10,420 bases of DNA from Endomicrobium sp. (GTDB taxonomy: Bacteria > Elusimicrobiota > Endomicrobiia > Endomicrobiales > Endomicrobiaceae). Positions 1 to 10,420 of this stretch are shown here, piece after piece; within the stretch, counting starts at the first letter, position 1; every line of letters starts with the position of its first letter. Made by a program: the position numbers and the translations under genes. The notes beneath the pieces were generated by a model that was not told the DNA's origin, made no database searches, and was given only the letters and a program-made list of their open reading frames with translations. Where the stretch lies: contig JAISRA010000010.1 in assembly GCA_031273885.1 (NCBI GenBank), positions 1 to 10,420 on the forward strand. Reading direction: 5' to 3'.

Positions 1-733
1 AATACCTACCGGCATTCAATATATTTTCTATACTAAAACCAAAATTGTTTGGAATTAATCTTTTTCTTTGTTCATCACTAACAGCATGCAAAGAAATTGC
101 AAGGCGAATACCAAAATTATTGTCCGCAAGTTTTTTTATCGCAGGCACAACACCTACGCTTGAAAGAGTTATATGTCTTTTGCCTATTGCAAACCCTTTA
201 TTTGACAAAAGCGAATCTAAAACAGAACTAATATTGTTAAAATTAAGAGTAGGCTCTCCCATACCCATAAACAATACACTAGAAATTTTTTCTTTGGTGT
301 CGTTTTCAATCTGTAAAATCTGTTCTAGTATCTCTCCTCTGGTTAAATTTCTGACAAGTCTAACTTTACCGGAAGAACAGAACGCACACATTACCGGACA
401 TCCAATCTGAGACGAAATACATACTGAACTTTTTCCTTTCATATGCAAAAAAACCGCAAAAAAATATTTTTTATCTATGGTTTTAAAAGTATATCTTATT
501 GTACTGTCAATTAAAGATTTTTCTTTTTTTACTATTTTTAAAGCTCTTAACAGAAACCTTTTTTCAAGTTTTTCTCTTAACTTTTTTGATATATTTGTAA
601 ATTCTTCAAAAGAAGCGACTTTTTTTACATAAATCCACTCTATCATTTGACTGATTCTATAATCTTGCTTTATTACAGATTTTACTGCCGTTTTAAGTTT
701 TGCATTTGTTAAATCCAATATATATTTTTTCAT
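1..733 (-). CDS. rlmN: RlmN, dual-specificity 23S rRNA/tRNA adenine-C2 methyltransferase (N-terminal part, cut by window edge)
   Basis: Radical SAM enzyme that methylates C2 of A2503 in 23S rRNA and of A37 in some tRNAs. About 244 codons are visible from ATG at 733 and the frame stays open to base 2. After a Lys-rich N-terminal accessory domain comes SSQIGCPVMCAFCSSG, with the CX3CX2C motif that holds the radical-SAM 4Fe-4S cluster. It is followed by LFMGMGEPTLNFNNI (the GMGEP SAM-binding motif) and LSSVGVVPAI, LAISLHAVSDEQRKRLIP, all typical of RlmN. The C-terminal part with the methyl-carrying Cys lies outside the window. The start is only 6 bases after the pgi stop and has no clear Shine-Dalgarno sequence, so translation is probably coupled to pgi. 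Several runs of six or seven A or T interrupt the gene, but I recounted them and the frame is intact. Confidence 0.95.
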   Translation of the reverse strand, partial: MKKYILDLTNAKLKTAVKSVIKQDYRISQMIEWIYVKKVASFEEFTNISKKLREKLEKRFLLRALKIVKKEKSLIDSTIRYTFKTIDKKYFFAVFLHMKGKSSVCISSQIGCPVMCAFCSSGKVRLVRNLTRGEILEQILQIENDTKEKISSVLFMGMGEPTLNFNNISSVLDSLLSNKGFAIGKRHITLSSVGVVPAIKKLADNNFGIRLAISLHAVSDEQRKRLIPNNFGFSIENILNAGRY

Positions 734-739
734 ACATAT

Positions 740-2386
740 TTATTTTTGATTCGCTTTAAAAATTTTTATTAAATTCTCTGTTGAACTGTCATGTTTATTA
801 TTTGCCTGCTCTTTAAGTTCAGGTAAAATAACGTTTGCCAAGACTTTTCCAAGCCCTACTCCCCACTGATCAAAACTGTTAACACGCCACATAATGCCTT
901 GAGTGAATATTTTATGTTCGTAAAGCGCAATTAACGCACCTAAGGTTTTAGGTGTAAGGCTATCAATTAAGATACTGTTTGTAGGTTTATTTCCTTCATA
1001 CACTTGATGTGGAGCTAAAATCTCTATCTCATTGAGAGAATGCCCCATTTCTTTAAGATTTTCAACAACTTGATCCTTGGTAAGACCAAAAGCCAAAGCT
1101 TCAGTTTGAGCAAAATAATTTGCCATAAGTTTTTCGTGATGATCGCCAACTTTTTGCATTGGTTTTATAAAACCTATAAAATCACAAGGAATGAATTTTG
1201 TTCCTTGATGAATAAACTGATAAAAAGAATGTTGTCCATTTGTTCCGGGCTCACCCCAGATTATAGGCCCTGTCTCATAGTCAACCCTATCACCTTCAAA
1301 ATTTACAGTTTTACCGTTACTCTCCATATCTCCCTGCTGCAAATATGCCGGGAATCTATGTAAATAGTGACTATAAGGTAAAACAGCATGTGTTGAAGCC
1401 CCAAAAAAGTTATTGTACCAAATTCCTAAAACAGCCATAATTATTGGTATATTCTCTTCGTAAGGAGCATTTAAAAAATGTTCATCCACATAGTGAGCGC
1501 CGTCTAAAAGTTCCAAAAATTTATCAAAGCCTATAAAACAAGCAATCGACAATCCTATTGCCGACCAGAGAGAATATCTGCCACCAACAAAATCCCAGAA
1601 TTCAAACATATTATTTTTATCAATACCGAACTCAGACACTTTTTTTGTGTTTGTGGAAAGCGCAACAAAATGGTTTACAACAGCTTTATCACCGAGCTTT
1701 TCTGTAACCCAATTCCTTGCAGTTAGCGCGTTAGTAATTGTTTCAGTTGTCGTAAAAGTTTTTGAAGCAACTATAAAAAGTGTATTTTCTGGTTTTAACT
1801 TTTTTAATACATTGTACATATCTGCAACATCGATATTAGAAACAAAATAAATATTGGGGCCGTCATTCGCATAATACCTTAATGCTTCGCAAACCATTCT
1901 GGGCCCTAAATCAGAACCGCCTATACCTATATTTACAACATCTGTAATTTTCTTACCAGTTGCGCCAAGCCATTTTCCGTTTCTTAAATCATTACTGAAT
2001 TTTTCCATTTTTGCAAGAACTGCATTAATTTCAGGCATTACATTGTTCCCATCAACATAAATGGGACTTTCACTTCTATTTCTTAAGGCTGTATGCAAAG
2101 CAGGTATTTTCTGAGTCCAATTTATTTTTTCACCTAAAAACATTTTTTTTGCCCACCCGTTTACTCGTGCGGCTTTTGCAAAATCCATTAAAAGTTTAAA
2201 AGTATCCGAAGTTATAATATTTTTTGAATAATCAAAAGTTATTCCTATGTTAGTATCACGTATAGAAAACTCATTGAATCTATTTTTATCTTTAAATAGA
2301 TCCCTTAAATGAAGATTTTTGACTTCATTATAATTCTTCTCAAGATTCTGCCATTGTGGAATTTTTTTGAGTTCAAATTTACTCAT
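740..2386 (-). CDS. pgi: Glucose-6-phosphate isomerase
   Basis: Cytosolic glycolytic enzyme interconverting glucose-6-phosphate and fructose-6-phosphate. The 548-residue length is normal for the long bacterial form. Family landmarks in order: [11 protein letters not shown] (about 152-162), SKTFTTTET (209-216), [12 protein letters not shown] (268-279), [10 protein letters not shown] (350-359), [14 protein letters not shown] (378-391) and [11 protein letters not shown] (504-514). The catalytic residues Glu355, His386 and Lys514 are all present. The usual FDQWGVELGK motif reads GVGLGK here, so a highly conserved Glu at 511 is Gly. The start is supported by AAGGAG seven bases upstream of ATG. It is the first gene of a pgi-rlmN unit and is divergent from the RNA methyltransferase; a candidate promoter lies at 2507-2535. 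Confidence 0.97.
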
Positions 2387-2506
2387 TATATTCTCCTTTT
2401 TTATATTTTATATTAATGAATGTGTTTATGACTGCGATAGATACAAACGAAAAAATACTAACTCTACACACCGGCTACTATAATATAGCACAGTTTATAG
2501 TATTGT

Positions 2507-2535
2507 GTTATAGTATTTTCTGTTTACTTTTGCAA
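2507..2535 (-). promoter_or_regulatory. Candidate sigma70 promoter for pgi-rlmN
   Basis: Minus strand: -35 TTGCAA (2530-2535), a 17-base spacer, then -10 TATAAC (2507-2512). The same -35 hexamer and spacing recur upstream of the rubredoxin gene (8427-8455). It would give a leader of roughly 115 bases before the pgi ATG. The -10 box lies within one copy of a direct 10-base repeat, so two overlapping -10-like boxes exist 13 bases apart. Predicted from pattern only. Confidence 0.45.
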
Positions 2536-2596
2536 CCCCTTTAAGCATTGACAACAATGTGTTGCACCTACTTGTTCGTAGGCGAAGCTAGGGGTT
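2534..2596. repeat. Inverted-repeat element that can fold as a three-way junction
   Basis: AACCCCT (2534-2540) pairs with AGGGGTT (2590-2596). AGC (2544-2546) with GCT (2587-2589) extends the closing stem across a 3-base bulge. Inside are two hairpins: ATTG/CAAT with a 4-base loop (2547-2558) and CCTAC/GTAGG with a 6-base loop (2567-2582). It is GC-richer than its surroundings. At 63 bases and without a D arm or anticodon arm it is not a tRNA. It could be a small structured RNA, an attenuator-like leader element or a dispersed palindromic repeat. Confidence 0.5.
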
Positions 2597-2827
2597 ATAC
2601 TAATTAATCTGTTACCAGTACCAGTATAAAGTACAAATAATCTTCGGCATATTTAAGCTATTTTTATTGAATTATAACTTTTGCTCTATTTGTTTTCTAT
2701 TGTATCTATTGAGGATCATTCTATATAGAAATTAAAATCTATCTTAATCTTACCTAAACTTAAATTTTTAATTTACGGTATAAATCACATTTTTTTTCTT
2801 CTATAAATAATATGATAAAATTTAAGA

Positions 2828-3586
2828 ATGAAAATTGAAAGTATTAGGAATCAAATATTTAAAGAAACACTTCAACTGCAGGATAAAAAATTTCGTGATA
2901 AAAATAATCTTTTTATTGTTGAGGGCAAAAAACAAGTCAAAGAAATTTCAAAATACTGGCATATAAAACAAATTTTTATCTCTGAAAAACATAAAAACAC
3001 TATTAAAATTAAGAATTTTACAAATGTTATAGTTCTTTCCGAGAATTTATTCAATAAGTTAGTATCAACACAATCTCCTCAAGGAATAATGGCTGTTGTA
3101 AAAAAAAAGCAATATAACGTTAAAAAAATTGTTAAAACACGTGGATTATTTATAATCTTAGAAAACATTCAAGATCCAGGAAATCTTGGAACGATTATAC
3201 GTTCTGCAAACTCATTTGCGGCCAAAGCCGTGTTTGTGTCAAAAGGGAGTGCTGATATCTATTCTGAGAAAACTTTAAGAGCCACAATGGGTTCGATATT
3301 TCATTTACCTGTAATAAACGATATTAATATTGAGGACACTTTAAACATAATGAAAAAGGAGAAAATTACTATTTTTGCAGCGTCTATAAAAGGGGAGAAA
3401 TATTTAAATGACATTAAATTCCCAAGCAAAAAAGCTTTTATAATAGGGAATGAAGCAAATGGACTGAAAAGTGAAACAGAAGATTTGGCGGATGAGCTTG
3501 TTAAAATATATATGCCTGGCAGGTCTGAATCTTTAAATGTTGCCATCGCTGCATCTATAATTATGTACGAAGCAACAAAGAGATGA
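2828..3586 (+). CDS. SpoU/TrmH-family RNA 2'-O-ribose methyltransferase
   Basis: SAM-dependent methyltransferase that methylates a ribose 2'-OH in rRNA or tRNA; the target nucleotide cannot be read from sequence. Residues 24-93 form the N-terminal SpoU substrate-binding (L30e-like) domain (FIVEGKKQVKE). The SPOUT trefoil-knot domain follows with its three motifs: ILENIQDPGNLGTIIRSA (110-127, Asn113 and catalytic Arg125), IIGNEANGL (205-213) and MPGRSESLNVAIAASIIMYE (229-248, conserved Ser/Asn). The 252-residue length is typical of this TrmH/RlmB-like subgroup. The ATG at 2828 fits the start of the binding domain, although the preceding Shine-Dalgarno is weak (TAAGA). It is a single-gene unit, convergent with the rubrerythrin operon. 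Confidence 0.93.
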   Translation: MKIESIRNQIFKETLQLQDKKFRDKNNLFIVEGKKQVKEISKYWHIKQIFISEKHKNTIKIKNFTNVIVLSENLFNKLVSTQSPQGIMAVVKKKQYNVKKIVKTRGLFIILENIQDPGNLGTIIRSANSFAAKAVFVSKGSADIYSEKTLRATMGSIFHLPVINDINIEDTLNIMKKEKITIFAASIKGEKYLNDIKFPSKKAFIIGNEANGLKSETEDLADELVKIYMPGRSESLNVAIAASIIMYEATKR

Positions 3587-3705
3587 TAAACGATTCATTG
3601 CTGAAGTTTAAGGGTAGATATTTTTATGAAATATTTTAATTTGCTAGACTTAAAAATATTTTGACATTATCAAATAGTTTTTTGTGCATACTTTATACTT
3701 TTGCA

Positions 3706-3746
3706 AATATTTAAAGAGTCGGAATAAAGCCGGCTCTTTAAATATT
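3706..3746. terminator. Long hairpin, likely bidirectional terminator
   Basis: A 17-base-pair stem (3706-3722 with 3730-3746, one G-T pair) closes a 7-base loop. It lies between the plus-strand methyltransferase, which ends at 3586, and the minus-strand rubrerythrin, which ends at 3763. The A/T-rich outer stem supplies U-rich RNA on both strands, although a separate U-tract after the hairpin is weak. The convergent position suits a shared terminator. The other roughly 120 bases of this gap hold nothing I recognise. Confidence 0.8.
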
Positions 3747-3762
3747 GCTTTATAAAGTCTGA

Positions 3763-4341
3763 TTAGAAATTATCAACCAACTTTTCCATGTAAGATTTAG
3801 TATGTAAACACGCCGGACATTTATTCAAAGCTTCCTTACTTTCATATACATATCCACAGTTGCGACATTTCCATTTTATAGCTACATCTTTTTTGAAAAC
3901 CCTGTCATTTCTAAGATTATCTAAAAGTTTTGAATATCTTGATTCATGATGTTGTTCAGCTACACAAATTTTTCTAAAACATTCAGCTATTTCAGGAAAG
4001 CCCTCTTCATCAGCTACCTTTGTCGCATTTGGATAAACTTTTGTATATTCCTCGTACTCCCCTTCCGCTGAAAATCTTAAATTCTCAATGGTAGTACTGA
4101 CAATTCCTGCAGGAAAAGTTCCAATAATTTCAAGAGAGCCGCCTTCCAAAAAATTGAAAAATCTTTCTGCATGTTCTTTTTCATTATCAGCAGTTTCTGC
4201 AAAAACTGCAGCAATTTGTTCAAATCCTTCTTTCCTTGCTTTTGCAGCAAAATAAGTATATCTCATTCTTGCTTGTGATTCTCCTGCAAATGACCCCAAC
4301 AAATATTTCTCTGTTCTTGTTCCCTTAATCGATTTTACCAT
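3763..4341 (-). CDS. rbr: Rubrerythrin (non-haem di-iron peroxidase)
   Basis: Reduces hydrogen peroxide to water in the cytoplasm of anaerobes, with electrons arriving through rubredoxin. The 192-residue length matches classical rubrerythrin. The N-terminal four-helix ferritin-like domain carries the di-iron ligands Glu21 (AGESQARMRY), Glu54 and His57 (EKEH), Glu94 and Glu97 (EGEYEEY), and Glu129 with His132 (EQHH). The C-terminal rubredoxin-like domain binds one Fe through Cys159, Cys162, Cys175 and Cys178 (CRNCGY...CPAC). AAGGAGGAG about ten bases before ATG supports the start. It is last in the oxygen-defence run, 49 bases after the superoxide reductase gene and followed by the strong hairpin. 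Confidence 0.97.
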   Translation of the reverse strand: MVKSIKGTRTEKYLLGSFAGESQARMRYTYFAAKARKEGFEQIAAVFAETADNEKEHAERFFNFLEGGSLEIIGTFPAGIVSTTIENLRFSAEGEYEEYTKVYPNATKVADEEGFPEIAECFRKICVAEQHHESRYSKLLDNLRNDRVFKKDVAIKWKCRNCGYVYESKEALNKCPACLHTKSYMEKLVDNF

Positions 4342-4390
4342 ATACTAAACTCCTCCTTTCTAAATCAATATTCATGTACAGTCAAATACA

Positions 4391-4840
4391 CTATTTTATT
4401 TCCACTTCATTAAACCACCGACCATGAATATTGCAATTTCCTATAACTTGAACCTTGCCTTTTGTCTTACTATTTAAATGAATAACTGCAGAAGGATTTA
4501 TATTAGCTGTAAGTATAATCTTTGATACAAATTTATTATCAATATAAAAAACTATCTCTGTTATATGATGCTCCGATAATGTAGGATGAGCTATTTCCCC
4601 AACTTTTACATGAACATCTATACAACCAGTATCTTGAAATAGACCACATTCTTGAACTATTGTGAACATCGGCACATGTTTTTTTTCTGTTTCACCAGTA
4701 CCGAAAACTACTTTAAAATCCGGCAGTTTATAAGCATCCTCTTTTTCCTCAAACACATTCTCTAAATGACAAACAGGGCACCAATCTTTCTTTCCATCTA
4801 ACGCGACGTATCCGCAAACTTTACACACTAATCCTTTCAT
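4391..4840 (-). CDS. dfx: Desulfoferrodoxin-type superoxide reductase
   Basis: Reduces superoxide to hydrogen peroxide without making O2, using electrons from rubredoxin; rubrerythrin next door can remove the peroxide. The C-terminal SOR domain has all five ligands of the mononuclear Fe site: His55 (KKHVP), His85 and His91 (HPTLSEH), Cys136 and His139 (CNIHGRW). The catalytic Lys before the first His is present (Lys54), but the usual Glu of EKHVP is Lys53, with a Glu one place earlier. The N-terminal domain is a rubredoxin or zinc-ribbon type CX2C...CX2C (Cys6, 9, 21, 24), like the tail of rubrerythrin, not a desulforedoxin domain with adjacent Cys residues. AGGAGG about ten bases upstream supports the start. 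The 84-base gap before it contains a perfect TATAAT (4882-4887, minus) without a clear -35, so an internal promoter is possible. Confidence 0.95.
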   Translation of the reverse strand: MKGLVCKVCGYVALDGKKDWCPVCHLENVFEEKEDAYKLPDFKVVFGTGETEKKHVPMFTIVQECGLFQDTGCIDVHVKVGEIAHPTLSEHHITEIVFYIDNKFVSKIILTANINPSAVIHLNSKTKGKVQVIGNCNIHGRWFNEVEIK

Positions 4841-4924
4841 AACACACTTCCTCCTAAATTTAAAAATTTAATTAACACATTATTATATATTTTAAATTAA
4901 GTTACAAATAATAACCGAAAAAAT

Positions 4925-6115
4925 CTACTTTTCGTTCTTTATTTTTAAAGCAAAAGCTTTACCTGCCTCAAAACATTTATTCAATTCTCCATCAGTAGGA
5001 TTAAAAATGACTCTTAATGACGAATCAAACGATGTAACGTTGGAAACTGTGTCTTCAATATCTTTAATTGCCTCGCCACTCCAACCATAAGAGCCAAATG
5101 CAAAAGATTTACGCTTTTTAGCTTTTGATCCTTTAAGGAAATGTAAAAAACCCGCCATTGCAGGTAGCATCTCACTATTATGAGTTGACGATCCAAAAAT
5201 CCAGCCTTTAGTGTCAAGCATATACGAAGCAATGTCTGTTCTGTCATTTTTTGTTACGTCAAACAAAACAGCATCAACACCTTCTGAGGTTACTCCCTCG
5301 ACAATCTTTCTCGCCATTTTTTCGGTAGACTCCCACATTGTTTCGTAGACAACAGCAACTCTATTTTTACATGAATGTGACGACCAGTACAAATATTTTT
5401 GCATAATTTCAGATATATGCTTGCGCCATACAAGTCCATGACTTGGAGCAATAAGTTCAATACCATTATTTAATTTATTTATTGCGGCAATTTTTGAAGA
5501 AACGAGTGCACTGAAAGGCCAAAGTATATTTGCATAATATTTTTGAGCTTCATCCATCAGAGCGGCAAAATTAACTTCATCATCAAAAATTTCATTTGTA
5601 GCATAATGCTGACCAAAACCATCATTTGAAAATAAAATCTTATCGTAACCCGAATACGTAAACATACTGTCAGGCCAGTGTATCATCGGAACGTCTATAA
5701 AATCTAAAGTTCTTACGCCGATATTTAAACTCTGTCCTGATTTTACCGCAATCCAGTCTCCGCTTACTCCGTAGTATTTTAAAAGTCCTTGCCTTGCTTT
5801 TTCTGTGCCATAAATTTTTGCATTTGGACAGAGTTTTAATATTTCAGGAAAGGAACCAGAATGATCCGGTTCGATATGATTGATTATTATTGTGTCTATT
5901 TTTGATGGCTCTATAACGGTTTTTATATTATCTATCAACTCTTTTTCAAAACCTTTACGTACCATATCAATCAATGTTATTTTTTTATCGAGAATTAGAT
6001 AAGAATTATAAGTAACACCTCTTTTTGTCACATACGTATATCCGTGAAAACGCCTTTCATTCCAATCTATCGACCCTACTGTATAAACACCATCTTTTAC
6101 TAATCTAGCTACCAT
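4925..6115 (-). CDS. fprA: Flavodiiron protein (rubredoxin:O2/NO oxidoreductase)
   Basis: Four-electron reduction of O2 to water, or NO to N2O, protecting anaerobes; fed by rubredoxin. The 396-residue length is the class A form. Residues 1-250 are the metallo-beta-lactamase-like domain with the complete di-iron set: His80, Glu82, Asp84 and His85 (HIEPDH), His146 (MIHWPDS), Asp165 (FSNDGFGQH) and His226 (APSHGLVW). Residues 252-396 are the FMN-binding flavodoxin domain (VAVVYETMWESTEKMA, FGSSTHNSEMLP, FGSYGWSGEA). There is no extra rubredoxin or flavin reductase domain, so it needs a separate rubredoxin such as the one at 8224-8382. AAGGAG seven bases before ATG supports the start. It lies 24 bases downstream of the small Cys-rich gene. 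Confidence 0.97.
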   Translation of the reverse strand: MVARLVKDGVYTVGSIDWNERRFHGYTYVTKRGVTYNSYLILDKKITLIDMVRKGFEKELIDNIKTVIEPSKIDTIIINHIEPDHSGSFPEILKLCPNAKIYGTEKARQGLLKYYGVSGDWIAVKSGQSLNIGVRTLDFIDVPMIHWPDSMFTYSGYDKILFSNDGFGQHYATNEIFDDEVNFAALMDEAQKYYANILWPFSALVSSKIAAINKLNNGIELIAPSHGLVWRKHISEIMQKYLYWSSHSCKNRVAVVYETMWESTEKMARKIVEGVTSEGVDAVLFDVTKNDRTDIASYMLDTKGWIFGSSTHNSEMLPAMAGFLHFLKGSKAKKRKSFAFGSYGWSGEAIKDIEDTVSNVTSFDSSLRVIFNPTDGELNKCFEAGKAFALKIKNEK

Positions 6116-6139
6116 AATTAAATCTCCTTTATATGAATA

Positions 6140-6313
6140 TTACTTATTTTCAGGTGTATGTAAAGGAACCTTATCGTATTTAGGTGCATACTCTGACACT
6201 TTCATATCTTTTTTTGCGTTAATGCCGCAAGGTCTGCAAAACTTAGGACTCATACAGCCATTTTTTAATTCGAGTTCACAATGAGGACATAAACAGCTCT
6301 GATTTTTATGCAT
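6140..6313 (-). CDS. Small six-cysteine protein, probable metal-binding knot
   Basis: A 57-residue protein that I cannot assign to a named family. Cys7, 9, 12, 20, 26 and 29 lie in the first half, with the core CPHCELELKNGC then FCRPCG, a CXCX2CX7CX5CX2C spacing that suggests a zinc-ribbon or iron-binding site. The second half is charged and probably flexible, with no Cys, signal peptide or membrane segment. I chose the start at 6313 because AAGGA, formed by the last codons of iscU, sits at the right distance. A longer frame beginning inside iscU would be an out-of-frame overlap without a ribosome binding site. Only one base separates it from the iscU stop, so translation is likely coupled. 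Its position between an Fe-S scaffold and FprA suggests a role in Fe, Fe-S or redox handling, which is inference only. Confidence 0.8.
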   Translation of the reverse strand: MHKNQSCLCPHCELELKNGCMSPKFCRPCGINAKKDMKVSEYAPKYDKVPLHTPENK

Positions 6314-6314
6314 A

Positions 6315-6692
6315 TTATTTTCCTTGTTTAATCTTATAGTTTTCAATTGCTCTATGCAATGCATCTGCTCCAAGATTTGAGCAATGCATTTTATTTGGTG
6401 GAAGCCCGCCTAAAGCCTTTGCAACATCTGCATTTGTGAGATTCATGACTTCATCGAGCGTTTTGCCAACCGCCATTTCTGAAACTATAGAAGAAACAGC
6501 TATTGCCGCACCACATCCAAAAGTTTTAAATTTAACATCTTCAATTTTATTATCTTTAACTTTTATGTAAAAAGTCATCATATCACCGCATACTGGGTTA
6601 CCAACTTCACCAACACCGTCTGCATCTTTTATTTCTCCGATGTTTCGCGGATTTGCGAAATGATCCATAACTTTTTCCGAATAAAACGCCAT
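6315..6692 (-). CDS. iscU: Fe-S cluster assembly scaffold IscU/NifU-N
   Basis: Scaffold on which 2Fe-2S and 4Fe-4S clusters are built before transfer to apoproteins. The 125-residue length is that of stand-alone IscU, without the NifU C-terminal domains. All key residues are present: Cys35 and Asp37 (GNPVCGD), Cys60 (FGCGAAIA), and Lys101, His103 and Cys104 (LPPNKMHCSNLGADAL). The N-terminal YSEKVMDHFANPRNIG is the family signature. The ribosome binding site is unusually strong (GGAGGGGG directly before the start). It follows the NifS-like gene on the same strand but is separated from it by 275 bases, so it may have its own promoter. The scaffold looks fully functional, in contrast to the altered NifS-like partner. 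Confidence 0.97.
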   Translation of the reverse strand: MAFYSEKVMDHFANPRNIGEIKDADGVGEVGNPVCGDMMTFYIKVKDNKIEDVKFKTFGCGAAIAVSSIVSEMAVGKTLDEVMNLTNADVAKALGGLPPNKMHCSNLGADALHRAIENYKIKQGK

Positions 6693-6967
6693 TTTCCCCC
6701 TCCAATATTTTTACTATTTCTGTTACACCGACAACAGTAATAACTAACACTTAACGATCATCAAAGTTACAGCACACAATTAGTTGTCTCTTCAGAGCTT
6801 AGGGTTTAAGTCGAAATATAAAAAATAAGAATACTAATGATTGGAAGCAAAACGAAGCAAATTGCTGTTATATAAGCTTTCATTTCTCAAAGTTGTAGCT
6901 TTAAATATCAAAATCGTTTAACCTGAACCCATCACTGATACGCCAAAAATACAGGCGCGTTATTTCT
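6693..6967 (-). other. Gap between NifS-like gene and iscU
   Basis: I see no coding sequence. On the minus strand TTGATG, a 16-base spacer and TATTAC form only a weak promoter candidate just upstream of iscU. Close to the NifS stop is a short GC-rich inverted repeat (CGCC/GGCG) without a U-tract, too weak to call a terminator. By contrast the neighbouring genes of this run are 1 to 84 bases apart. Confidence 0.4.
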
Positions 6968-8215
6968 CTATACTAAATGCTTATGATTGTGATCATAAAA
7001 GTCTGTACCTGCCCCCGTGACTTTCCTCTCACCTGTTTGTACAAAATACGAGTATAACGGCGACATATCTCTTAGTCTTTTAACAATTTTAGGAAATTCT
7101 TCTAAAATATAATCAATCTCTTCTTCTGTATTAAATTTTGACAAAGTAAACAAAATAGAACCTTGACCGACAGCAATATCTATATTCATAGCATCAAGAA
7201 CATGTGAAAGTTTAAGGTTTTTATTGGCACATGCAGAACCGATTGCAGCCATGATACCTTTGGCATCCAGAAGTAAAAACAGAGCTTCTCCTTCGACAAA
7301 TTCTATCGAAAAATTTATATTTCCCGGCAGACGGTTTTCTTTCATCCCGTTTAAATAAATATATTCTACTCTCTTTGGAAGTTCAATAATAAGCTTATCT
7401 CCTAACTTTTTAATAATTTCAGCATTTTTAACAAATTCTTTCTTAGCGATTTCGCAGGCTTTGCCAAAACCAACGATAGCAGGAATATTTTCGGTACCAG
7501 CACGTTTAGAATTTTCCTGAACACCGCCATCCATTTGCTGACTAATTTTTACACCTTTTTTAAGATACAAAGCTGCCACACCTTTAGGTCCGTACATAAC
7601 TGAAGCCGAAATACTTAGGGCATCGATATTCAAATCTTTAATATCTACAGGAATTGCACCACAAGCACTAACTGCATCGGTATGAAAAACAACGAAATCA
7701 TTAACGTTGCTATTTTTAACTATAGAAACTAATTTTTTTATATCTTGCACTGTCCCCACTTCAGGATTTGCATACTGAATAGATACCAAAATTGTATTTT
7801 TGCTCAACGCTTTCTTAAGTTCGTCTCCACTTATATTGCCTCTAGTGTCAACAGGCAAATAGGTTACTTCAAATCCTTCTTTCTGTAGTCTTTTTACAGA
7901 ATTTAAAACTGAAAGGTGCTCAATTGCAGAAACAATAATATGCTTCCCTCTGGTTTGTAAAGCACATGCAATGCCTTTTATTGCCAAATTATTAGATTCA
8001 GTTCCGCAAGACGTAAAAATAATCTCTTTAGAATCTGCATTAATGAAATCTGCAACCTGTTGCCTCGCTGCGTCAAGAGCGTCTTTAGAAACAGAACCTA
8101 AAGAGTAAATACGTTGAGGATTCCCATAATACTCTACAAAAAACGGTTTCATCGCATCAAAAACTCTTTTATCAAGTTTAGTATTCGACTGATTATCCAA
8201 ATATATCTGTTTCAT
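6968..8215 (-). CDS. nifS: NifS/IscS-like protein lacking the PLP-binding lysine
   Basis: Class V aminotransferase fold, full length (415 residues), with the overall layout of a cysteine desulfurase: YLDNQSNTK at the start, GTESNN (71-76), SAIEH with His100, HTDAV with Asp180, AGTEN (239-243) and the mobile catalytic loop IGSACANKN with Cys329. The usual S-A-H-K-x-Y-G-P-K-G motif is SASVMYGPKG (203-212), so the Schiff-base Lys is Val206 and the preceding His is Ser205. Other PLP-pocket positions also differ: NNE is NPE (150-152) and DAVQ is DAVS (180-183). It is therefore unlikely to act as an ordinary PLP cysteine desulfurase. A role as sulfide or persulfide carrier, or structural partner for IscU, is possible. 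The C-terminus ends in an unusual His-rich tail (DHNHKHLV). It starts 8 bases after the rubredoxin stop, with GAGAG in the rubredoxin tail as ribosome binding site. Confidence 0.9.
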   Translation of the reverse strand: MKQIYLDNQSNTKLDKRVFDAMKPFFVEYYGNPQRIYSLGSVSKDALDAARQQVADFINADSKEIIFTSCGTESNNLAIKGIACALQTRGKHIIVSAIEHLSVLNSVKRLQKEGFEVTYLPVDTRGNISGDELKKALSKNTILVSIQYANPEVGTVQDIKKLVSIVKNSNVNDFVVFHTDAVSACGAIPVDIKDLNIDALSISASVMYGPKGVAALYLKKGVKISQQMDGGVQENSKRAGTENIPAIVGFGKACEIAKKEFVKNAEIIKKLGDKLIIELPKRVEYIYLNGMKENRLPGNINFSIEFVEGEALFLLLDAKGIMAAIGSACANKNLKLSHVLDAMNIDIAVGQGSILFTLSKFNTEEEIDYILEEFPKIVKRLRDMSPLYSYFVQTGERKVTGAGTDFYDHNHKHLV

Positions 8216-8223
8216 ATTTTATG

Positions 8224-8382
8224 CTACTCTCTGTCAAAAGCAGACTTTGGAGCACCGCATAAAGGACATGTCCAGTCACTAGGAAGCTGTTCAAAAGAAG
8301 TTTCAGGAACAATGCCGTCTTCTTGAATACCTACAGCAGTATCAAAAATATATCCACACAAAGAACACTTCCACTTTTCCAT
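8224..8382 (-). CDS. Rubredoxin
   Basis: A 52-residue one-iron electron carrier in the cytoplasm. It has the two family motifs CSLCGYIFD (Cys6, Cys9) and CPLCGAPKSAF (Cys39, Cys42), which bind a single Fe(SCys)4 centre, and the conserved aromatic and Pro residues between them (PSDW). The start ATG is preceded by GAGGGTGG and by a promoter candidate at 8427-8455. As first gene of the run it is the natural donor for FprA, the superoxide reductase and rubrerythrin encoded downstream. No NAD(P)H:rubredoxin reductase gene is in the window, so the source of electrons lies elsewhere. Confidence 0.96.
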   Translation of the reverse strand: MEKWKCSLCGYIFDTAVGIQEDGIVPETSFEQLPSDWTCPLCGAPKSAFDRE

Positions 8383-8426
8383 AATATCCACCCTCTTATT
8401 TTATCTTAAAATTAGTAATTAGTAAG

Positions 8427-8455
8427 ATTATCTATTTTTTTGATTCTTTTTGCAA
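8427..8455 (-). promoter_or_regulatory. Candidate sigma70 promoter of the rubredoxin-nifS operon
   Basis: Minus strand: -35 TTGCAA (8450-8455), 17-base spacer, -10 GATAAT (8427-8432). It has the same -35 hexamer and spacing as the pgi candidate. Transcription would begin near 8420, giving a leader of about 40 bases before the rubredoxin ATG. The tandem 7-mer ATTAGTA overlaps the expected start site. Confidence 0.5.
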
Positions 8456-8471
8456 ATATTTTTACAAAACG

Positions 8472-8484
8472 GTACATTTTGTAC
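8472..8484. promoter_or_regulatory. Palindrome GTACA-TTT-TGTAC, possible operator
   Basis: A perfect 5+3+5 inverted repeat lies 17 bases upstream of the -35 box of the rubredoxin operon. This is a usual place for an activator or redox-sensing regulator to bind. No regulator gene is visible in the window, so the role is a guess from position and symmetry. Confidence 0.3.
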
Positions 8485-8754
8485 GCTATTTGAAATTGCT
8501 GTAGATGATCTGATAATAAGAGAAAAGCAACCTGTTGTATTTATACCTTTACAAATTAGATATTATGAGGTATTAAAACTATTTTTCTCAATATTGAATT
8601 GTGTTTCGTTTATAATCTTTTTATAAGCTTATAAAATTTTTAAAAATTAATAAAATAATGCATTTTTATAAAATATCGTTTCATATAAAATGAGTTTTTT
8701 TATTTCTTATAGTAATTTTCAAAAGTGGTATTCTCATTTTTTTTTACAGAACTA

Positions 8755-8979
8755 AAATAAAAATTATACCGTTTACGCTTTTAATGTTACCTTTACCATT
8801 TACAACAACAACTGTTAAAGTTTACATGGTTGTTTATCTGGATGTTTTTTTATTAACAGAAGCTTTATAATTTCAAATAATCTACTGCTCTATCAAAATT
8901 ATGTAATCTACCATCCTACCTAAAGTTTTTACTGGGATTGTGACAGTTTCTAAAATTTTAGTCGACTGCTCATCATAAC
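8755..8979 (-). pseudogene. Remnant of a third gene in the decayed MoxR operon, possibly BatD-like
   Basis: Two stretches of protein-like sequence remain directly after the DUF58 remnant. The first is a 33-codon open stretch (8882-8980) containing KILETVTIPVKTLGRMVDY, with the look of a beta-rich domain. The second, at about 8760-8818, reads VVVVNGKGNIKSVNGIIF, which resembles the G-x-GN-(L/I)-K motif of BatD-type proteins often encoded beside MoxR and DUF58. Several stops lie between them and no start is visible. The identification rests on one motif and operon context, so it is tentative. Confidence 0.35.
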
Positions 8980-9605
8980 TTAAAAAATCATAAAAATGAG
9001 ATAATATTCATGTGTATTTAAACTTGCATTATAGCTGTTTTAAAAAATATTCTTCCTGTCTCTTTATCCAAGATTTTCTCTTTTGTCTAAAAGATTCTAA
9101 TTATAACATGGTAGAACTTGATAGAACTGTTAGTATTATTGTTTTTTTGTTTCAGGATTTTCCATTTCAACTAAGCTTATTTTTGTAAAGTTTTTTCTCA
9201 TTTTTTTCAATTTTCATGATGAAAATCTGAAAGCTATTGAAATTGATATTTTTGTGCCCGATGGTTTTGAATTTAATATTTCATTTATAATTCTTAAAAT
9301 ATTATTTTTTTACATTTGTAGGGAGTAGTAATTTCCTCAATTTTAGATGATGAAACATCTGCAAGAAAAATAATAGTAAGGTCTCTTTCTTTAAAGAAAA
9401 ATTTTATATAACATTTCTCAATATCGGGCTGTAATAAACATTACGGTCGATACTTCTAAAGTTGTCTCTAATCTGATATTTTCTGACTTTGTAAATATTC
9501 TATTCTTCTACATTAAAAAATGTTTTGATATTGATCGATAAAGATTTCATTTACAAGTTTAGATGCTTAAGTTTCATATTCTACGCTTCAACGAATTTCA
9601 TGCCA
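8980..9605 (-). pseudogene. DUF58-family protein, degraded pseudogene
   Basis: Fragments in family order but in shifting frames, with stops. They are KLVNEIFIDQYQNIF (about 9518-9561), KYQIRDNFRSIDRN (9440-9495; intact families read REYQxGDDxRxIDWN), a TAR piece, then FKERDLTIIFLADVSSSK (9341-9398; normally EERxLTVxLLxDVSGSM). Next come IEEITTPYKCKK and RIINEILNSKPSGTKIS (9245-9292), LVEMENPETKKQ, and FRQKRKSWIKRQEEYFLK (9041-9092). DVSSSK joins almost directly to IEE, so roughly 45 residues of the von Willebrand-like core have been deleted. DUF58 proteins normally work with a MoxR AAA+ ATPase, whose remnant lies immediately upstream. The matches cover most of the family, so I am confident in the identity and in its being non-functional. 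Confidence 0.85.
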
Positions 9606-10062
9606 TACTGTGTTTATATTTTCTTCAGTTGAACACACAACATATATTCTAAAGTAATTACGTAATTAACATTCGACGTCTTATGCGTCATTTGTTATAG
9701 AACATTTTTATCAGATTTTTTCGATAGGAGGCTTTAAAATTTAAGCATAGAGCTGGCAATATATGAGCTTCAAGCACTTTCGGCGACCATCGCACAGCCA
9801 ATTTCATTGGCAAGAACTAACTGTACTTACAAACATATGACATTTTTACAGTAAAACTAATAAACCAGTGGGTCTATAATATCGGTGGGCAATAAATCCA
9901 GAGTAAACTGTATTTTTTATAATTGGATTTTATTGCAAATGACAAACTCTTCACAGTAAGAATTTTTGCAAGCTAAAATAAAAGACCTTCAAGCAGAATA
10001 CGCCACTTTGAAAAAAACCTACAAAACTATACAAAGGCGTACAAGATTTTGTAAAAATTGTT
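9606..10062 (-). pseudogene. MoxR-type AAA+ ATPase, degraded pseudogene
   Basis: Family-ordered pieces on the minus strand. FFSKWRILLEG and LAKILTVKSLSFAIKSNYKK (about 9913-10004) match the Walker A region GHILLEGVPGLAKTLxVKSL, with the P-loop itself ruined by a stop and substitutions. IQFTLDLLPTDII (9875-9912) matches the strongly conserved RIQFTPDLLPxDI. VLANEIGCAM (near 9788-9817) matches the Walker B LADEINRA. A C-terminal scrap STEENINTV (near 9610-9640) follows. At least one frameshift separates the first two pieces, and several hundred bases between Walker B and the C-terminus are missing. It ends where the DUF58 remnant begins, the standard MoxR-DUF58 gene order. Intact MoxR proteins are AAA+ chaperones of about 320 residues. 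Confidence 0.85.
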
Positions 10063-10102
10063 TAAAGCAATAAAATTTAGACTTCATGTAATGTACTTTG
10101 TC

Positions 10103-10420
10103 TTAATTCTCAAATGTAAATTCAAAATCTCCGATTCTAACAGTATCTCCAGACTTTGCCCAAGTTTTTTTAGCTCTGTTTCCAAACCCATTTTTTTAAG
10201 AATATTTTGATAACGCCTTAATGCTTCATCTTCACCAAATCTTGTCATTTTCGTAAGAGTTTCAATTTTCGCACCGCTAACCACAAAAATTTTATCTTTA
10301 CCAATATTAACCTTAAATTCGGCCTCGTAAATATATTCCCTTACAGGCACTGTTTCTATTTCATTTTCAAAACTAAAAATACTAGGTTTTTCAAGCACTT
10401 TTGAGATTTCTTTAAGCAGT
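10103..10420 (-). CDS. obg: Obg GTPase, C-terminal part with a frame break at a slippery A tract (cut by window edge)
   Basis: Conserved essential GTPase linked to 50S ribosome assembly and stress responses. The visible part is the OCT domain (FVVSGAKIETLTKMTRFGEDEALRRYQNILKKMGLE, split here as FVVSGAKIETLTKMTRF and GEDEALRRYQNILKKMGLE) plus some linker. The frame is open upstream to the window end, so an apparent GTG start at 10398 is internal. After ELKK the original frame runs on for 26 unrelated residues to a stop at 10084-10086. The conserved family ending, SGDTVRIGDFEFTFEN followed by TAA at 10103-10105, lies in the -1 frame. The switch falls exactly at a seven-A run (10165-10171) read as A_AAA_AAA. 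Either one base was lost, or slippage restores the protein, or this is a sequencing error. Confidence 0.88.
10165..10171 (-). other. Slippery heptamer A_AAA_AAA inside obg
   Basis: On the minus strand codons CTA AAA AAA CTT can slip back one base, so that reading continues as AAA AAA ACT TGG and enters the conserved OCT ending. Insertion of one extra A by RNA polymerase in the same run would do the same. A purine-rich AGAG lies a few bases upstream; I see no convincing downstream stem-loop. Confidence 0.55.

Follow-up and report, generated by a model that had tools for sequence, protein, structure and literature searches.

A NifS/IscS-type protein without the PLP lysine, encoded beside NifU in Endomicrobium, is a likely PLP-free partner in iron-sulfur cluster assembly

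The window analyzed here, a stretch of 10,420 nucleotides from the gut symbiont Endomicrobium sp. (assembly GCA_031273885.1, contig JAISRA010000010.1, positions 1 to 10,420), encodes on its minus strand a full-length protein of the NifS/IscS type in which the lysine that binds pyridoxal 5'-phosphate (PLP) is replaced, and directly downstream of it a NifU scaffold protein. We denote the former NifS* and refer to NifS-type proteins without the PLP lysine at position 206 as K-less. The genome of origin comprises 915,914 bases and is 87.3% complete and 6.3% contaminated. The two genes and the positions of NifS* discussed below are as follows (row counts refer to a joint alignment described further on).

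6968..8215, minus strand: NifS*, full-length NifS/IscS fold of 415 amino acids without the PLP lysine, intact frame
7598..7603, minus strand: codons of Ser205-Val206; His-Lys, the Schiff-base site, in canonical NifS
7151..7153, minus strand: codon of Leu355; Arg in canonical NifS (R354 in E. coli)
7229..7231, minus strand: codon of Cys329, the loop cysteine, retained in 417/417 K-less rows
7760..7768, minus strand: Asn150-Pro151-Glu152; NNE in canonical NifS
7667..7669, minus strand: Ser183; Gln183 in canonical NifS
6971..7027, minus strand: C-terminal tail, residues 397–415, the local version of the clade's AGPGTDY-(E/D)H-x-H-x-H extension, modeled with low confidence
6315..6692, minus strand: NifU/IscU scaffold of 125 amino acids, retaining three Cys and the Asp that follows the first of them, with the signature VSSxVSE, PPNK, and CSNLGAD

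Residues were compared with E. coli IscS, in which the Lys site carries the same number. Lys206, His205, Asn155, Gln183, and Arg354 of the E. coli enzyme correspond to Val206, Ser205, Pro151, Ser183, and Leu355 of NifS*. Retained are His100 (H104 in E. coli), Asp180 (D180), Ser203 (S203), Thr72 (T76), and Cys329 (C328), the first four of which we take to correspond to PLP contacts of active enzymes. A preliminary description of this DNA had listed the changes at Lys, His, NNE, and Gln183 and the kept His100, Asp180, and Cys329, and these observations stand, as do the intact frame and the intact neighboring iscU gene reported there; it overlooked a second loss, that of the arginine of the SxRFS motif (Leu355), which presumably binds the substrate carboxylate. 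With respect to the hallmarks of an active class I cysteine desulfurase, NifS* thus lacks the Schiff-base Lys and the SxRFS Arg and retains the mobile-loop Cys.

At the family level, NifS* matches PF00266 of Pfam (aminotransferase class V; 243.4 bits) as a full-length fold, and NCBIfam equivalog models for NifS/IscS cover almost all of it. Its scores lie under the curated cut-offs of TIGR03402 (478.2 of 530.75), TIGR02006, and NF010611, active NifS of the relatives not having been scored likewise. The label "cysteine desulfurase" attached to K-less genes in databases is probably wrong. An AlphaFold model built from 93 K-less sequences, which bears on the fold alone and not on cofactor or partner binding, has a mean predicted local distance difference test score of 90.1, with low confidence in the Cys loop (residues 328–333) and the tail. 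In structural comparisons it comes nearest to IscS enzymes and complexes of human NFS1, and it superimposes on Archaeoglobus fulgidus IscS with a root-mean-square deviation of 1.1–1.4.

The distribution of the residue losses was studied in 59 genomes, the genome of origin and 58 relatives, where copies were sorted into K-less and canonical by identity and their motifs were read afterwards. A K-less copy is present in 51 genomes (two as fragments), a canonical copy in 53, and both in 45; the K-less match stands alone in six genomes, each at most 78% complete, and the canonical copy in eight. Lys206 and Arg355 are absent from all 49 K-less copies read, the fragments falling short of the site, and the His-Lys pair and the Arg are found in 53/53 canonical copies. 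The genome of origin itself holds a second, intact NifS, of the kind that the preliminary description had proposed to look for: its motifs read SAHKFNGPKG and RFSFG, and it is divided between contigs C86 and C124, which overlap at their ends.

Beyond these genomes, listings of the best 120 proteins give lower bounds for the size of the family. Among the matches listed, position 206 is not Lys in 120/120 nearest proteins and in 120/120 relatives of a divergent copy. Endomicrobium is the source of the closest named proteins, among them that of the cultured organism Endomicrobium proavitum (P0071), and the source names for the divergent copy's relatives include WOR-3, Planctomycetota, Firestonebacteria, Latescibacteria, and Thermodesulfobacteriota. 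A search of 340 genomes of the phylum yielded, among the matches listed and with most motifs unread, matches at the K-less level of identity, which are distributed over many families of the class and some others. In six genomes from other groups (labeled WOR-3, Desantisbacteria in two cases, Proteobacteria, Deltaproteobacteria, and plain "bacterium"), motif reading identified both a K-less and a canonical copy in 6/6. One Desantisbacteria genome has a further K-less copy (G343:C350:2114-3277) with SSTDIYGPLG and Val in place of the Arg; Asp at its Lys site is the archaeal-like form, and there is one stop within the match.

A DNA pattern for AGPGTDY(E/D)H, searched across GTDB genomes, recovered 32 stretches, every one with a NifS-like open reading frame (ORF), and the protein is K-less in all 28 that reach the site (four fall short). 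No Lys-bearing intermediate with the AGPGTDY tail was found among these loci. In a plasmid collection, 231 records match, all at less than 60% identity, and the six examined are canonical. A private mutation is ruled out by the loss of Lys throughout the genus, the class, and beyond, as is a shift of the Lys to a nearby position, the sole lysine in the motif rows being that of GPKG, which canonical proteins have too. By these alignments the K-less state is a fixed character of a clade, and relatives do not have the HK motif here that would have spoken against the preliminary description.

The joint alignment comprises 446 rows (298 bacterial K-less, 119 archaeal K-less, and 29 canonical), one Lys-bearing Archaeoglobus record being omitted. 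Lys206 and Arg355 occur in none of the 298 bacterial and none of the 119 archaeal rows, and Cys329 in all 417. Position 206 is V, Q, A, T, E, S, L, P, I, M, or N in the bacterial rows, and Asp in 119/119 archaeal rows. Both K-less groups share N75, S102, Q147 (78% in Archaea), K332, and N299, which are mostly absent from canonical rows. The residues of the tail are kept in 86–91% of the bacterial K-less rows. In a set of 93 rows, H100 and D180 are invariant.

In A. fulgidus IscS2 the two motifs read SSNDIYGPKG and GTLLLTLG, so that Lys, His, and Arg are all gone. Among its best 120 relatives listed, Asp occupies the Lys site in 119 and Lys in one (P0242), the Arg is missing in 120/120, and the Cys is kept in 120/120. 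P0242 is itself an A. fulgidus IscS2 record with Lys at the Asp199 site, and P0241, on a 2.18 Mb contig, has Asp; PDB entry 4r5f is the D199K mutant of A. fulgidus IscS. Fifteen archaeal rows are 44–49% identical to NifS*. A quick tree was built from 95 rows with the active-site columns removed, and a thinned set served for a constrained test. A single branch sets the bacterial K-less rows apart (support 84, against 71 in the thinned set), and another the archaeal ones (support 98), which are not adjacent to the bacterial group in the quick tree. Constraining all K-less rows to one clade gave a log likelihood higher by 7.58 (p = 0.598 in the approximately unbiased test). A single origin of the bacterial and archaeal proteins is therefore not rejected and would be compatible with the tree test.

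NifS* is under purifying selection. The ratio of nonsynonymous to synonymous rates (dN/dS, NG86 method) between the window gene and four close copies is 0.091, 0.093, 0.115, and 0.126, at a dS close to 1. The genome pair behind the first of these values (G000/G019) gives 0.091 for its canonical paralogue as well, compared across 238 codons. The 25 closest listed pairs of the genus, none of which includes the window gene, range from 0.10 to 0.26. The suggestion of re-use and not simple decay, made in the preliminary description, is supported by these values.

NifU lies directly downstream of NifS*, on the same strand and within 1 kb, in 45/51 genomes, and a canonical NifS adjoins NifU in just 9/53. 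At a threshold of E 1e-40, exactly one strong NifU match is present in 54 of the 59 genomes, two in four, and none in one; this count omits three weaker near-full or partial matches (G039, G052, and G054; E 1e-25 to 1e-19) and 16 weak partial ones. The latter, G000:C132:4034-4207 and 15 similar NifU_N matches in several relatives, score 18–24 bits over positions ~38–95 and sit mostly in ORFs of ~240 amino acids. The form of NifU co-varies with its neighbor: all 104 rows of NifU ORFs beside NifS* (locus repeats counted) have CSNLG and N, H, or Q preceding the Lys of the LPP motif. NifU beside canonical NifS carries CS(V/I)LAE where the two were read within a single locus (L051, L062, L117, and L118) and, as assigned by place, in G050 and G054, and has another form in G055. 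Among solved structures, A. fulgidus IscU comes closest to the window NifU; it too carries CSNL, with a Gln in front of that Lys.

Other known assembly genes are mostly missing. SUFBD was found in 1/59 genomes (14/14 known genomes in the control) and in 0/6 of the other-group genomes carrying both NifS types. No A-type carrier was detected in the 59 genomes by a search that recovers 9/14 known genomes, and no HscB by one that recovers 1/14, ferredoxin and HscA not having been searched. NifS* and NifU are usually the sole Fe-S (iron-sulfur) scaffold pair found per genome.

The remaining genes of the run at 3763–8382, all on the same strand, are the following.

8224..8382, minus strand: rubredoxin-like ORF whose stop lies 8 nt ahead of the NifS* start; identified by eye, with no family search
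6140..6313, minus strand: small Cys-rich ORF of 57 amino acids between NifU and the flavodiiron gene, without a match in Pfam or NCBIfam; similar ORFs lie near NifU in many relatives
4925..6115, minus strand: flavodiiron protein, FprA type
4391..4840, minus strand: desulfoferrodoxin-like protein
3763..4341, minus strand: rubrerythrin

NifS* and NifU are thus placed among rubredoxin, flavodiiron protein, desulfoferrodoxin, and rubrerythrin, an oxygen-defense set, and this linkage recurs across many relatives. In rumen relatives (Ruminimicrobiellum and others; L090, L092, L093, L096, and L112) the gene order is canonical NifS, NifS*, NifU.

We consider it likely that NifS* is a PLP-free, desulfurase-dead protein of the NifS/IscS fold that serves as a dedicated partner of NifU in Fe-S cluster assembly. 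The observed basis consists of the residue losses, the kept Cys, the conservation, the linkage to and co-variation with NifU, the fold, and the lack of most other assembly genes in the genomes searched; from it we infer the absence of PLP and of activity and the binding to NifU, as well as the roles of Cys329 and the tail and the sulfur sources in the following scheme. Binding of the NifS* dimer to NifU would follow the pattern of known IscS-IscU complexes, with Cys329 carried to the NifU cluster site by the mobile loop. There, this residue could receive sulfur, whether handed over as a persulfide by the active NifS encoded elsewhere or built from sulfide; alternatively, it could serve for a time as a ligand of the cluster, which is what has been described for A. 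fulgidus IscS-IscU. The C-terminal tail, with its AGPGTDY and His and acidic residues, may aid docking to NifU or bring iron. The preliminary description had favored a sulfur carrier, perhaps using free sulfide; a persulfide donor in trans is equally possible, because an intact paralogue exists.

Several observations weigh against this interpretation. Weak, non-covalent binding of PLP is possible, because His100, Asp180, Ser203, and Thr72 are kept, and the uniform Asp at the archaeal Lys site could mean that this residue has a role. Five small Endomicrobium genomes (L058, L059, L069, L070, and L077) have NifS* without the His-rich tail. In six of the 51 genomes (G007, G011, G027, G043, G049, and G051) NifS* is not adjacent to NifU. 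A NifU of the NifS* type stands beside canonical NifS in three of the nine cases of such adjacency (G049, G051, and G053, in the last of which NifU is flanked by the two NifS genes). NifS* would not be indispensable everywhere, because one genome (G037, 99% complete; L158) has a NifU of this type and no NifS* match. Finally, the absence of HscB says little, since the control found this protein so rarely.

Among the alternatives, NifS* might be a heterodimer partner or regulator of the active NifS that tunes or directs its sulfur transfer to NifU, the functional unit then being NifS, NifS*, and NifU together. The co-occurrence of canonical NifS in 45/51 NifS* genomes and in all six other-group genomes speaks for such pairing, as does the gene order in the rumen relatives; however, the two NifS genes are not neighbors in most of the 59 genomes, canonical NifS seldom adjoins NifU, and the A. 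fulgidus complex is given in its title as (IscS-IscU)2, with a single kind of IscS. On balance, we regard this arrangement as unlikely. Still less probable, in our view, is that the old pocket has acquired a new ligand or activity (non-covalent PLP, a metal, or a different substrate), the association with NifU then being secondary. Such a function would fit the invariance of H100, D180, and similar pocket residues, the newly conserved positions shared by K-less rows (N75, S102, Q147, K332, and N299), the fixed archaeal Asp, and a His- and acid-rich tail that could bind metal, but position 206 varies freely in Bacteria, as expected of a lost site, and assembly is indicated both by the linkage to NifU and by the signature that NifU carries. 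That NifS* is a decaying NifS duplicate under relaxed selection, as the loss of several catalytic residues and the existence of an active paralogue might suggest, is refuted as far as sequence allows by a dN/dS resembling that of the active paralogue, a K-less form fixed across several phyla, the universal Cys329, the conserved tail residues, and the retained operon; the K-less site is neither a sequencing error nor a product of decay.

Returning to NifS* as a PLP-free partner of NifU, a wider proposal is possible, with the balance tilted slightly against it: one ancient desulfurase-dead IscS lineage, spanning Archaea and several bacterial phyla, may, together with an IscU that co-evolved with it, make up a distinct system for Fe-S assembly. 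Here, sulfur release would be uncoupled from the scaffold complex, with sulfide or an enzyme acting in trans supplying the sulfur, and an IscS-like dimer would only hold NifU and lend a cysteine; in Endomicrobiia this would usually be the only scaffold system. A. fulgidus provides a strong precedent for a PLP-less NifS-NifU pair. What is new is that K-less NifS extends through a bacterial class and past it, next to a scaffold gene that is usually the genome's only one. In the portion of the literature seen, PLP-less IscS has so far been an archaeal oddity studied mainly in one species; no paper treating a bacterial K-less NifS clade was found, judging by titles and abstracts and with subscription literature outside the coverage. 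The bacterial NifS* makes it testable whether the scaffold role of IscS can exist without the release of sulfur, and whether sulfide can feed Fe-S assembly under anaerobic conditions.

Compared with known systems, NifS* differs from the class I cysteine desulfurases NifS, IscS, and NFS1 by the lack of the Schiff-base Lys, the His, and the motif Arg. The minimal ISC (MIS) system, MisS-MisU, in which MisS is described as a cysteine desulfurase (PMC11559095, PMC12442378), is similar in having an IscS-like and IscU-like pair, with no HscB or A-type carrier found here (the HscB control being weak) and SUF nearly absent. As far as descriptions can be compared, it differs in that the neighbor of NifU here has lost the catalytic residues, whereas MisS is described as a desulfurase. 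PMC7585200 states that the catalytic lysine is likewise missing from Methanosarcina acetivorans IscS1, which may act like A. fulgidus IscS; its likeness to NifS* in the lysine loss is by this description, not by sequence. According to the same source, A. fulgidus IscS has no desulfurase activity, its lysine being aspartate, and uses a Cys to ligate the [2Fe-2S] cluster in IscU (PMC7585200). The parallel with this protein, drawn in the preliminary description, is upheld by these statements, by the loss of Lys, His, and Arg there, and by the nearest solved relative of the window NifU. The closest counterpart features are those of A. fulgidus IscS2 (PDB 4eb5, 4eb7, and 4hvk), where Lys (Asp199), His (Asn), and Arg (Leu) are likewise replaced, the loop Cys is kept, and the partner is IscU, a partnership known here as an adjoining NifU gene. 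On the other hand, the Lys site of the bacterial clade holds V, Q, or another residue and not Asp, and the clade has P, T, or S at the middle position of NNE (G 38%, N 28%, and P 23% in archaeal rows), and a conserved AGPGTDY-His tail that the archaeal rows lack.
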